Positions 35,985-42,583 of a stretch of 64,000 nt of DNA are shown in pieces. How positions within the stretch are numbered: the first letter of the stretch is position 1; the number at the start of each line of letters is the position of its first letter. The notes below the pieces were generated by a model. That model was not told where the DNA came from. It saw nothing but the letters and a program-made list of their open reading frames with translations, and made no database searches. The stretch is taken from positions 1,178,001 through 1,242,000 of the forward strand of contig NZ_CP119787.1 in NCBI RefSeq assembly GCF_029338255.1, written 5' to 3'. The position numbers and the translations under genes are program-made. Source of the stretch: Haloarcula halobia. Its GTDB lineage: Archaea; Halobacteriota; Halobacteria; Halobacteriales; Haloarculaceae.

Positions 35985-36094
35985 TGACGTGGCTGCTGGG
36001 CGGGCACGCGGACAGAAACCGCTGGAAGTCGGTCGTATTCCCGAATCGAAAAAACATCTTTTCGAATCGAGAACGAGGCCAGTGAAACCCGAAA

Positions 36095-36133
36095 CTATTA
36101 TCAGCGTCTCCGCCTAGGTTTCGGTTGACCTAA
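36095..36133 (+). promoter_or_regulatory. sufC promoter with DtxR/IdeR-like dyad
   Basis: A TATA-like CTATTAT (36095-36101) precedes the predicted start point near 36123. An inverted repeat TAGGT-N8-ACCTA (36115-36132) covers that point, 10 nt before the sufC ATG at 36143. The half-sites equal those of IdeR/DtxR iron boxes (TAGGT-N7-ACCTA), with one extra central base. Repression by an iron-responsive DtxR-type regulator is inferred, not shown. Confidence 0.5.
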
Positions 36134-36142
36134 TAGATAACT

Positions 36143-37069
36143 ATGGCAGTACTCGAAATCAACAATCTCCACGCCGAAGTCGCCGAAGAGGACGGTGAGC
36201 AGATCCTTCGCGGTGTCGACCTCGAAGTGCAGTCGGGCGAGATCCACGCCCTGATGGGCCCGAACGGGTCGGGCAAGTCGACCACAGCGAAGGTCATCGC
36301 CGGGCACCCCGCCTATCGAGTCACCGACGGTGAGGTGCTCATCCACCTCGAGGACGACGAGTTCGGCGAGGACTTCGAGATCCCCGAGGACATGCGGACC
36401 TGGAATCTCCTCGATCTCGAGCCCAACGAGCGCGCCGCCCTGGGCGTCTTCCTCGGCTTCCAGTACCCCGCCGAGATAGAGGGCGTCACGATGGTGAACT
36501 TCCTCCGCACGGCGCTCAACGCCAAGCTCGAAGAGCGCGAGGAGCTCTTCGAGGAGGACGACGAGGAGGACGCTGAGGCCGAGGACACCAACGAGGACGC
36601 CGCCGGCTACGACACCTCGCCGATGGAAGGGAACGTCGAAGAGGGCGAGGTCGGTGTCGCCGAGTTCCAGCAGATCCTCCAGGAGAAGATGGAGCAACTG
36701 GACATGGACGAGAAGTTCGCCTCCCGCTATCTGAACGCCGGCTTCTCCGGCGGGGAGAAGAAACAGAACGAGGTCCTCCAGGCCGCCATCCTCGAGCCGT
36801 CCATCGCCGTGCTCGACGAGATCGACTCTGGGCTGGACATCGACCGCCTGCAGGACGTCTCGAACGGCATCAACGCGCTCCGCGACGAGCAGGGCGCCGG
36901 CATCCTCCAGATCACCCACTACCAACGCATCCTCGACTACGTCGAACCCGACCACGTCCACGTGATGCTCGACGGCAAAATCGCCAAGTCCGGCGGCGCC
37001 GAACTGGCCGAGCAACTCGAGGACGAAGGCTACGACTGGGTCCGCGAGGAAGTCTACGAGGCCGCGTAA
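36143..37069 (+). CDS. sufC: Fe-S cluster assembly ATPase SufC
   Basis: The 308-residue ABC-type ATPase has Walker A GPNGSGKST (about 39-47), the SufC-specific EGVTMVNFLR region, the signature FSGGEKKQNEV (about 203-213) and Walker B AVLDEIDSGLDID, then ITHYQRIL with the switch His. An acidic insertion (about 135-165, EEDDEEDAEAEDTNEDAAGY) is typical of haloarchaeal versions. It drives the SufBD scaffold in Fe-S cluster biogenesis. It is the first gene of sufCBD, behind an iron-box-like dyad. Confidence 0.96.
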   Translation: MAVLEINNLHAEVAEEDGEQILRGVDLEVQSGEIHALMGPNGSGKSTTAKVIAGHPAYRVTDGEVLIHLEDDEFGEDFEIPEDMRTWNLLDLEPNERAALGVFLGFQYPAEIEGVTMVNFLRTALNAKLEEREELFEEDDEEDAEAEDTNEDAAGYDTSPMEGNVEEGEVGVAEFQQILQEKMEQLDMDEKFASRYLNAGFSGGEKKQNEVLQAAILEPSIAVLDEIDSGLDIDRLQDVSNGINALRDEQGAGILQITHYQRILDYVEPDHVHVMLDGKIAKSGGAELAEQLEDEGYDWVREEVYEAA

Positions 37070-37100: not shown

Positions 37101-38531
37101 ATGAGCTCAGACCAAGACCACCTCAAAGAGACCGACACCGAAGCCCGCTTCGAGTTCAAGAAGGAGGAGAAATCCGCCTTCCAGACCGAGAAGGGCCTGA
37201 CCGAGGAGACCATCCGGGTCATCTCGGAAGATAAGGACGAACCCGAGTGGATGCTCGAGCGTCGTCTGCGCGCCCTAGAGCAGTTCCGGCAGATGCCGAT
37301 GCCCGAGGGCTGGCCGGGCGCACCCGACCTCTCGGAGGTCGACATCGAACAGATCGTCCCGTACATCCGTCCCGACATCGAGACGCGCGGCGGCGCGGAG
37401 TCCTGGGAGGACCTCCCCGAGGAGATCAAAGACACCTTCGACAAACTGGGCATCCCCGAAGCCGAGAAGAACGCCCTCTCGGGCGTCGGCGCGCAGTACG
37501 AGTCGGAGATCGTCTACCAGAACATGCAGGAGCGCTGGGAGGAGAAGGGCGTCATCTTCTGTGACATGGACAAGGCCGTCCAGGAACACGAGGACCTCGT
37601 CCGCGAGCACTTCATGACGAAGTGCGTCCCTCCGAGCGACAACAAGTTCGCCGCGCTCCACGGTGCCGTGTGGTCCGGCGGGTCGTTCGTCTACATCCCC
37701 GAGGACACCACCGTCGAGATGCCGGTCCAGGCGTACTTCCGAATGAACAGCGAGGGGATGGGCCAGTTCGAGCACACGCTCATCATCGCCGAGGAGAACT
37801 CCGAGGTCCACTACATCGAGGGCTGTTCGGCCCCGAAGTACTCGGCGTTCAACCTCCATTCGGGCGGCGTCGAGGTGTTCGTCGGCGAGAACGCCCACGT
37901 CCAGTACTCGACCGTCCAGAACTGGTCGAAGAACACGTACAACCTCAACACCAAGCGCGCCATCTGCGAGGCCGACGGCACGATGGAGTGGGTCTCCGGC
38001 AGCATGGGCTCGAAAGCCACGATGCTGTACCCCTCCACCGTCCTCAAAGGGCCCGGCGCGACGGACAACCACATCACCATCGCCTTCGCGGGCGAGGGCC
38101 AGGACATCGACACCGGCGCGAAGGTCTACCACAACGCGCCCGACACGAAGTCCACCATCGAGTCCAAGTCCATCAGCAAGGACGGCGGCCGCACGAACTA
38201 CCGCGGCCTCGTCCACATCGCCGACGGCGCCGAGAACTCCTCGACGTCCGTCGAGTGTGACGCGCTGATGTTCGACAACGAGTCGACCTCCGACACCATG
38301 CCGTACATGGAGATCCAGGAGAACAAGGTCGACGTCGCCCACGAGGCGACCGTCGGCAAGATCGGCGACGAGGACGTCTTCTACCTCCAGAGCCGCGGCC
38401 TGGACGACGACGACGCCAAGCAGATGATCGTCGCGGGCTTCATCGAGCCAATCACGGAGGAACTGCCCATCGAGTACGCCGTCGAACTGAACCGCCTCAT
38501 CGAACTGGAGATGGAGGGGTCGCTCGGATAA
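37101..38531 (+). CDS. sufB: Fe-S cluster assembly scaffold SufB
   Basis: The 476-residue protein carries the SufB signature: RPDIETRGGAESWEDLPEEI, the beta-helix core with YIEGCSAPKY (the conserved Cys) and WVSGSMGSKATMLYPSTVLK, and the C-terminal AHEATVGKIGDEDVFYLQSR with MIVAGFIEP. It forms the SufBC2D scaffold on which clusters are built. The 31-nt gap from sufC and 2-nt gap to sufD show one operon. Confidence 0.96.
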   Translation: MSSDQDHLKETDTEARFEFKKEEKSAFQTEKGLTEETIRVISEDKDEPEWMLERRLRALEQFRQMPMPEGWPGAPDLSEVDIEQIVPYIRPDIETRGGAESWEDLPEEIKDTFDKLGIPEAEKNALSGVGAQYESEIVYQNMQERWEEKGVIFCDMDKAVQEHEDLVREHFMTKCVPPSDNKFAALHGAVWSGGSFVYIPEDTTVEMPVQAYFRMNSEGMGQFEHTLIIAEENSEVHYIEGCSAPKYSAFNLHSGGVEVFVGENAHVQYSTVQNWSKNTYNLNTKRAICEADGTMEWVSGSMGSKATMLYPSTVLKGPGATDNHITIAFAGEGQDIDTGAKVYHNAPDTKSTIESKSISKDGGRTNYRGLVHIADGAENSSTSVECDALMFDNESTSDTMPYMEIQENKVDVAHEATVGKIGDEDVFYLQSRGLDDDDAKQMIVAGFIEPITEELPIEYAVELNRLIELEMEGSLG

Positions 38532-38533
38532 CA

Positions 38534-39787
38534 ATGAGCACGCAGGTACACGCAAATCTCACAGCGAGCCAGGTCGAACAGATCTCCGAGGACTTGGGCG
38601 AGCCCGAGTGGCTGCTCGAGACCCGGAAGGACGCTCTTGGGGCGCTCGACGACCTCGAGATGCCCGACGTCATCCGGACCCCGGGCCGCAAGTGGACGAA
38701 CCTCGACGCGCTGGACTACGAGACGCTGGTCGACCCGCTCGACTACGCCCAGGAGAAAGACCGCATCGACGCCGAGGGCGTCGACGTGCTCTCGTGGTCC
38801 GAGGCGCTCGACCAGCACGGCGACCGCATCGAGGAACACTTCGGCAGCGTCGTCGACCCGCAGCGCGACTACCTCACCGCGCTGTCGACAGCGCTGTTCT
38901 CCGCGGGGACGGTCGTCTACGTCCCCGAGGGCGTCGACGCCGAGGACGTGAAGATCCGGACGACGATGAACAGCCGGTCGCTGTTCAACTACACGCTCGT
39001 GATCGCCGAGGACTCGGCCTCGGTCACCATCTTGGAGCGCCAGACCACGGGCGAGGACAGCGAGGCGCGGAGCGCCTCGGACGCGAGCGGTGGAACCGCG
39101 AGCGAGGGCGCACGATACTACTCGGGCGTCGTCGAGGCCGTCGCCGGCGAGAACGCCTACGTCCAGTACGGGACGCTCCAGAACCTCTCGGAGGAGAGCT
39201 ACAACTACCAGGTCAAGCGCGCCCACGCCGACACCTACGCCACGGTCGACTGGATCGAGGGCAACATCGGTTCGCGCCTGACCAAGTCCAACGTCGAGAC
39301 GCGCCTGCTGGGTGACTCCAGCGAGTCCAAGATCGTCGGCGCGTTCTTCGGCCACAACGACCAGCACTTCGACATCGCCTCGCGAGTCTGGCACGAGGCC
39401 GAACACACCGTCGCCGACCTCGTCACCCGCGGCGTGCTCGACGACGAGTCCCGCTCGGTCTACGAGGGCGTCCAGGACGTCGGCCGCGAGGCCTGGGACA
39501 CCTCCTCGTACCAGCGCGAGAACACGCTGATGCTCTCCGATGAGTCCGAGGCCGACGCCTCGCCGAAGCTCATCATCAACAACCACGACACAGAGGCCTC
39601 CCACTCCGCGACGGTCGGGCAGGTCGACGACGAGGACATGTTCTACATGACCTCCCGTGGTGTCGACCCCGAGCGCGCGAAGAACATGCTCGTCGAGGGC
39701 TTCTTCGTGCCCGTCTTAGAGGAGGTCGCGGTCGACGAACTGCGCGAGGACCTCGACGCCCTCATCGTCGAGCGCCTGACCGCCTGA
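38534..39787 (+). CDS. sufD: Fe-S cluster assembly protein SufD
   Basis: The 417-residue SufB paralogue has VVYVPEGVDAEDVKIRT, the beta-helix with YTLVIAEDSASVTILERQT and VKRAHADTYATVDWIEGN, and the C-terminal SHSATVGQVDDEDMFYMTSR. It pairs with SufB. Residues about 176-189 (EARSASDASGGTAS) look like an insertion encoded by two consecutive short hairpins and break the link between two core strands. The gene starts 2 nt after sufB. Confidence 0.95.
   Translation: MSTQVHANLTASQVEQISEDLGEPEWLLETRKDALGALDDLEMPDVIRTPGRKWTNLDALDYETLVDPLDYAQEKDRIDAEGVDVLSWSEALDQHGDRIEEHFGSVVDPQRDYLTALSTALFSAGTVVYVPEGVDAEDVKIRTTMNSRSLFNYTLVIAEDSASVTILERQTTGEDSEARSASDASGGTASEGARYYSGVVEAVAGENAYVQYGTLQNLSEESYNYQVKRAHADTYATVDWIEGNIGSRLTKSNVETRLLGDSSESKIVGAFFGHNDQHFDIASRVWHEAEHTVADLVTRGVLDDESRSVYEGVQDVGREAWDTSSYQRENTLMLSDESEADASPKLIINNHDTEASHSATVGQVDDEDMFYMTSRGVDPERAKNMLVEGFFVPVLEEVAVDELREDLDALIVERLTA
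39061..39099. repeat. Two tandem short hairpins inserted in frame in sufD
   Basis: CGAGGCGC-GGA-GCGCCTCG (39061-39079) is followed by GCGGT-GGA-ACCGC (39087-39099). Both have 3-nt GGA loops and encode a Ser/Ala-rich patch. The design is like that in the radical SAM gene at 7984-8036. Confidence 0.6.
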
Positions 39788-41532: not shown

Positions 41533-41678
41533 TCTCTGGACTACTCCTCTGGGGCGGGACAGGTTAGCGTTTCGACTCTCACCGTGGCTGTGGCCCACAG
41601 GGAACGGCTTAAGTCGCCGCCTCCCGGATGTGCGAGCATGATCGAATCGCCCCGTCACCGCCGACCGGAGGGGTCCCG

Positions 41679-42152
41679 ATGAGTCTCCGTGCCCCCATCG
41701 CGTCGGACCACCAGCTGGCGCGCCTCCTCCAGATCGGCATCGTCCTCGAGGAGGTCGTCGAGGCCCGTGCCGAGAAACACGCCGAGGCGACCCAGGACGC
41801 CGAGGTGGTCGCGATGCTCGAGGGCGCCGTCGAGGAGTCGGCCGAGCACCGCGAACGACTGGAGACCATTATCGCCGACCTCAACGCGGAGACGGTCCCC
41901 TTCGACGAGATACAGACGCTCGTCGAGGCCCAGTACGAGGCCGACCAGGACTTCGACGGCATCCTCTATGACCAGCTGTGCAACGAGGAGACCGCCTACA
42001 AGTTCTACGACGACCTCATCGGCGCCCTCGAGGCCTCGGACGCCGACTTCGGGGTCGACCGGGCGCACCTGCTGTCGGTCCTCGAGACCATCCGCGACGA
42101 GGAGGCCGAAGGCGTCGAAGCAGTCACCGAACTCATGGAGGACTATCGATGA
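41679..42152 (+). CDS. Ferritin-like/rubrerythrin-related protein paired with SirR
   Basis: The 157-residue, mostly helical acidic protein begins MSLRAPIASDHQLARLLQIG. It has repeated E-x-x-H-like pairs (ARAEKHAEATQ, EESAEHRERLE) at positions expected for ferritin-like helices. The GGAGGGG stretch 6 nt before the ATG is a clear Shine-Dalgarno-like sequence. The stop overlaps the ATG of the DtxR-type regulator (ATGA), so metal handling and metal-responsive regulation are coupled. Four-helix bundle metal binding is inferred; the ligand set is incomplete by eye. Confidence 0.75.
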   Translation: MSLRAPIASDHQLARLLQIGIVLEEVVEARAEKHAEATQDAEVVAMLEGAVEESAEHRERLETIIADLNAETVPFDEIQTLVEAQYEADQDFDGILYDQLCNEETAYKFYDDLIGALEASDADFGVDRAHLLSVLETIRDEEAEGVEAVTELMEDYR

Positions 42153-42583
42153 ATACACAGGCTCAGTATCTCAAGGCCATCTACCTCGCACAGCAACAGG
42201 CGGACGGCCCCGCCTCGACGGGTGCCGTCGCTGACTTCCTCGACGTGAGTCCGGCCAGCGCGAACGAGATGATCGGGAAACTGGAGTCCCGCGGCCTCCT
42301 CGAACACGAGAAGTACAAGGGCGTCGACCTCACCGACGAGGGGATTCAGCAGGCCCGCGACGCCCTCCAGAACTACTGTATCATCGAGCGGTTCCTCGTC
42401 GAGGTCCTGGAGGTCGAACAGTTCCGCACGGAGGCCAAACAGCTCGAGGGCGTCATCGACGAGACGGTGGCCGAGCGCCTCGACACCATCATCGACCGCG
42501 AACCGCAGTGTCCGGACTGCTTCGACGCCGAGGGAGACGTCTGTGGCCTGCTTGACGTCGAGGCCGAAGTCACCGGCGACTGA
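42149..42583 (+). CDS. sirR: DtxR/SirR-type metal-dependent regulator
   Basis: The 144-residue protein begins MNTQAQYLKAIYLAQQQADG and has an N-terminal winged helix (ASTGAVADFLDVSPASANEM, IGKLESRGLLEHEKYKGVDL). The dimerisation/metal-binding helices follow (FLVEVLEVEQFRTEAKQLEG). It lacks the SH3/FeoA-like third domain. The C-terminus instead holds CPDCFDAEGDVC, three cysteines that could bind a metal. It probably represses iron or manganese genes, and the dyad before sufC is a candidate target. It is translationally coupled to the ferritin-like gene. Confidence 0.87.
   Translation: MNTQAQYLKAIYLAQQQADGPASTGAVADFLDVSPASANEMIGKLESRGLLEHEKYKGVDLTDEGIQQARDALQNYCIIERFLVEVLEVEQFRTEAKQLEGVIDETVAERLDTIIDREPQCPDCFDAEGDVCGLLDVEAEVTGD

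Follow-up and report, generated by a model that had tools for sequence, protein, structure and literature searches.

A conserved palindrome over the predicted sufC start of Haloarcula halobia is a candidate operator of a haloarchaeal DtxR-type iron regulon

How is Fe-S cluster assembly controlled at a haloarchaeal locus where the suf genes are followed, 6 kb away, by a gene for a DtxR-family regulator, and which DNA site would such a regulator read? The window, which is the whole 64,000-nt stretch of Haloarcula halobia DNA that we analyzed, contains sufC, encoding the Fe-S assembly ATPase (36143..37069; TIGR01978, 296 bits against a cut-off of 212.8), and two genes for SufBD core proteins that were named by their order as sufB (37101..38531; PF01458, 288 bits) and sufD (38534..39787; PF01458, 230.3 bits). 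All three are on the plus strand, as is the regulator gene (42149..42583), whose product matches PF01325 (61.1 bits) and PF02742 (40.2 bits), both above cut-off; the initial annotation had named a DtxR-type regulator at this distance, and it is indeed there. Iron-linked control of sufC by this gene is well supported on sequence grounds. We consider it rather probable that the 14-bp palindrome TTCGGTTGACCTAA at 36120-36133 is a single-dimer operator of a haloarchaeal DtxR-type iron regulon, read by the 42149-42583 protein and acting to repress sufCBD.

The initial annotation had placed a different element over the sufC start, a dyad of the form TAGGT-N8-ACCTA, and had described its half-sites as those of the bacterial iron box, spaced by one additional central base. 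This dyad, TAGGTTTCGGTTGACCTA, is present at 36115-36132 (no strand assigned), with the sufC ATG at 36143, 10 nt further on. It is also above chance in the window, where the single match compares with a shuffle mean of 0.02 and only 2 of 100 shuffles contained one. However, a scan of the 3.48-Mb genome for TAGGT-N6-9-ACCTA gave 2 places compared with 5 for the reversed control, and the dyad therefore shows no enrichment. Its geometry was wrong: the real site is the overlapping palindrome TTCGGTTGACCTAA (36120..36133, no strand assigned), which has the form TTNGG-N4-CCNAA and reads TTCGG-N4-CCTAA. A single mismatch, in the variant arm TTCGG, separates it from TTAGGNNNNCCTAA (TTAGG-N4-CCTAA), and it is the sole stretch in the window within one mismatch of that sequence. 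The right arm of the dyad is that of the palindrome, while its left arm (36115-36119) is incidental, leaving the dyad as drawn out of phase. Upstream, the CGAAA and TATTAT sequences at 36090..36102 on the plus strand are predicted to form the BRE/TATA region of the sufC promoter, an assignment that we make by archaeal promoter rules. Together with archaeal spacing, they would presumably set the sufC start at approximately 36123-36127, under the box. A 19-bp double-dimer box was considered and rejected, as inspection by eye revealed no second unit in the sufC upstream sequence.

Conservation within the genus supports this phasing. Full-length sufC was recovered from 30 of 32 genus genomes, with two (G026 and G028) yielding no full-length sufC or sufS. 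The sequence TTCGG[GT]TGACCTAA, in which one central base varies, is found in 29 of the 30 sufC promoters, and the thirtieth (L013) carries TTAGGATGACCGAA, with the arm variants swapped. The 29 promoters other than L013 were aligned by anchoring on the element, so the agreement at columns 36119-36133, where the window base is present in 93-100% of rows, is expected from the alignment itself; the evidence lies in the 29/30 count and in the loss of agreement over the dyad's left arm, as at columns 36115-36118 the window base appears in only 7-21% of the 29 rows. Lack of conservation upstream of sufC in relatives, which the initial annotation had named as a ground for refutation, therefore counts against the dyad as drawn, but within the genus the overlapping palindrome is conserved. 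With its left arm unconserved and its motif unenriched in the genome, the 18-bp TAGGT-N8-ACCTA phasing was rejected. The promoter flanks and TATA region diverge across the genus, with the exception of CGAAA, which is invariant in 29/29 rows.

The perfect form of the palindrome is widespread. TTAGGNNNNCCTAA was found in all 292 haloarchaeal class genomes examined (292/292), with 301 matches compared with 14 in the control for 16 rows of the same genus (summed by hand) and 8 compared with 0 in the H. halobia genome itself. In the available excerpt of a study of Saccharopolyspora IdeR, TTAGGNNNNCCTAA is proposed as the redefined IdeR/DtxR consensus in a 14-bp, single-dimer form (PMC8464063). The half-sites and spacing of that operator are the same as those of the form enriched across haloarchaea, whereas the candidate suf copy described here has one variant arm (TTCGG) and sits in an archaeal promoter.

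The gene context of the perfect boxes points to iron in one relative. Genome G020 has 27 perfect boxes and none in the control. Of the 27, 11 have an IucA_IucC or Peripla_BP_2 gene (siderophore, ferric transport) no more than ~320 nt away, and one is followed after 43 nt by a NifU-domain gene (L270 6002-6381), a second hint of Fe-S assembly within the regulon; the rest stand ahead of a mixed set of genes or lack a clear target. In H. halobia, one perfect box precedes an SBP_bac_6 / BPD_transp_1 / ABC_tran-TOBE_2 operon, and two boxes precede the RGP-domain gene immediately ahead of that operon. The loose pattern TTNGGN4CCNAA gives 22 matches in this genome compared with 9 in the control, several of them with no evident iron link. 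A search for the suf-type variant TTAGGNNAACCGAA that allowed up to one mismatch returned exact matches at two places, sufS and sufC, and two places with one mismatch, one of which is the transporter box; by itself, this variant is not enriched in the genome, the control count being equal (2).

Several further features of the boxes were observed. Boxes also come in pairs with starts 34-36 bp apart, both in H. halobia (C1:865287 and C1:865323) and in several genomes of other haloarchaea, an arrangement that suggests a promoter bound by two dimers. At C1:1977199 (L136 1500-2999), a box is followed by a shortened lipoprotein ORF, a short permease-like ORF and an ABC ATPase, and the locus looks like an iron-transport operon with internal loss. 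A perfect box at C1:1874800 (L134 2801) has a ferritin-domain (Dps-like) gene on one side and a DUF7547 gene on the other, and in G020 a box is likewise found ahead of a DUF7547 gene (L269 13922). The same loose-pattern match is present in two near-identical stretches of a small contig (C2:20802 and C2:96401; L142, L143) that look by eye like insertion-sequence copies.

Which protein would read the sufC box? Only two proteins in the H. halobia genome give strong DtxR matches. Of eight weaker matches, two marginal PF01325 matches were read, and these were set aside as Lrp/AsnC-type by eye. An orthologue of the 42149-42583 protein is present in 19/19 named genomes searched (L109 left out), and in all 17 testable genomes, meaning those with both genes on one contig (L096 and L118, with the genes on different contigs, were left out), it is encoded downstream of sufC on the same strand at a distance of 4.2-25.6 kb. 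The gene directly upstream of the regulator in the window (41628-42152) appears ferritin-like by eye and has no Pfam match. In an alignment of the 42149-42583 protein with 5zr4, the positions that we take to be the D, H, H, E and H metal ligands of DtxR read Q, Y, R, K and G, and two glutamates are kept; across 21 suf-linked orthologues most classical ligand positions are changed in the same way. Four cysteines (C77, C121, C124 and C132) are invariant in 21/21 sequences, one of which is a second Halococcus copy. The protein is thus DtxR-family by fold but, with most of the classical metal ligands changed, may not be a classical Fe(II) sensor.

The second strong match, a three-domain MntR-like protein (C1:2084267), is, of the two, closer to the classical DtxR/MntR proteins, having a full classical ligand set and an FeoA domain, and it could be proposed that the box is real but is read by this paralogue in place of the suf-linked protein. 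We regard this as unlikely. Its gene overlaps one for a GDT1-family cation antiporter, which suggests manganese, and because it also keeps the classical ligands it is the likelier manganese regulator; moreover, the suf-linked gene is co-linear with suf in 17/17 testable genomes.

The suf-linked gene is probably the orthologue of TroR. Haloferax massiliensis has three DtxR genes 42 and 293 kb apart, a spacing that at ~1 kb per gene fits the Haloferax volcanii locus tags HVO_0863 (TroR), 0819 and 0538 given in the available part of the source (PMC11349517). Mapped in silico, the HVO_0863 primers (PMC6801745) did not place in the H. massiliensis suf region, so the TroR identity was not confirmed by this route. 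The Haloferax sufC loci in our set also differ from the H. halobia locus in lacking the box.

This difference is part of a wider pattern. We compared 80 named haloarchaeal sufC loci (the best 80 of 319), which are phylogenetically related, so that counts do not represent independent events. The palindrome lies within 80 nt upstream of sufC in 27 of these 80 loci compared with 0/80 for the reversed control, and the remainder of the same loci contains 13 in 510,486 bases. Three further loci, from Halapricum (2) and Halorhabdus (1), have near misses ending CCTAG, and the other 50 of the 80 have neither box nor near miss. A search for a cryptic degenerate box in the 53 loci without an exact one returned best matches with at least 2 mismatches in all cases, and the reversed control did better. 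The box is absent from all Haloferax, Natrinema and Halococcus sufC loci among the 80, although the suf-linked regulator is retained in those members of the three genera that the orthologue search covered. Where the palindrome is present, its arms change symmetrically across lineages, reading TTCGG..CCTAA in Haloarcula, TTAGG..CCGAA in Halosimplex and TTGGG..CCGAA in Haloglomus, with TTTGG..CCGAA also among the variants and the perfect TTAGG..CCTAA in Halorientalis and Halorussus. Measured from a CGAAA-type element, the box starts 30 nt downstream in 21 of the 27 loci and 40 nt downstream in the other 6, and the two positions are therefore 10 bp, or one helical turn, apart.

A conserved stretch that covers the predicted start, at a fixed 30 nt from CGAAA in most of these loci, might instead be a core-promoter, start-site or 5'-leader element, such as an initiator or an RNA element, and not an operator. 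This explanation is quite unlikely, as the same palindrome moves 10 bp downstream in 6/27 loci, is found ahead of other genes (for example at -48 of sufS), is missing from 50/80 of the sufC promoters (best 80 of 319), and varies symmetrically in its arms. That a DtxR-type dimer recognises TAGGT-N8-ACCTA is very improbable, since this exact dyad, for all that it exceeds chance in the window, has a left arm that few genus rows match and no enrichment genome-wide.

The box at sufS is related to that at sufC and has a more complicated record. In H. halobia, TTAGGCGAACCGAA is located at C1:80761, 34 nt before the sufS ATG (C1:80809). Among the 30 genus sufS loci, the palindrome is found at -48 or -47 in 13, CTAGG..CCGAA is found in another 13, and neither is found in 4; the palindromes read TTAGG..CCGAA or, in 5/13, TTTGG..CCAAA, with both arms changed. 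In the sufS genes of 30 named genomes the palindrome is present in 5, one of which (Salinigranum) has it at a different position, -13. The right arm of the sufS box falls on the same bases as a core promoter element, ACCGAAGG, which occurs with or without the box in the 30 named genomes, and for this reason the sufS site is weaker evidence.

Taken as a predicted site, a DtxR-type box over the sufC start, as the initial annotation had suggested, is well supported by conservation, the class-wide motif and synteny, although not in the geometry first given. With TTCGGTTGACCTAA as the operator, the suf-linked DtxR-family protein, the probable TroR orthologue, would be the most likely reader of 36120-36133. 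A dimer bound to the 14-bp box, whose centre falls on the predicted start, would, we infer, prevent sufCBD initiation while iron or Fe-S clusters are abundant, and would leave the box when they are scarce, freeing initiation. The related box over the sufS core promoter, elsewhere in the genome, could couple the sulfur donor to the scaffold. Since one arm remains imperfect in the suf boxes of this genus, repression of suf may require a higher regulator activity than repression of the uptake genes.

The scarcity of classical ligands and the four invariant cysteines raise the possibility, which we put forward only tentatively, that the suf-linked protein is an Fe-S cluster sensor through which sufCBD and sufS would come under feedback control; a zinc site at the four cysteines would also fit. 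Known regulators of this kind, SufR, IscR and RisR, have conserved cysteines and act on suf or isc operons (SufR, PMC11218638; RisR, PMC9973013), and RisR is encoded beside suf (PMC9973013), much as the haloarchaeal regulator is suf-linked. In the excerpts available, however, these proteins are of the ArsR or Rrf2 type, and because the 42149-42583 protein has DtxR domains it would be at most their functional analogue. According to the excerpted text, SufR has been tied to Fe-S assembly in Gram-positive bacteria, though not in Archaea (PMC11218638).

A further parallel is found in corynebacteria, where DtxR is linked to Fe-S assembly genes (PMC12327846, PMC1382209). There too, in the parts of these reports at hand, a DtxR-type site is tied to Fe-S cluster assembly, although the system is bacterial, with 19-bp sites and a DtxR that binds Fe(II) through ligand positions most of which are changed in the haloarchaeal protein. 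We recognised no haloarchaeal suf site of this type in the literature searched, in which coverage of archaeal regulons is partial, and one may already be in print; the novelty of suf as a target is accordingly uncertain. The more unusual part is the clade of cysteine-bearing, ligand-poor DtxR proteins tied to suf.

If the operator is as we propose, it would make Fe-S cluster assembly part of the iron regulon in one haloarchaeal branch, with the lineages that lack the box serving as natural controls. The invariant cysteines make it possible to propose, in concrete terms, what signal a DtxR-type regulator of archaea detects. Were the cluster-sensing idea true, the protein would be a SufR/IscR counterpart from archaea with a DtxR fold, and the iron regulon of the haloarchaea would respond to Fe-S status and not to free Fe(II).
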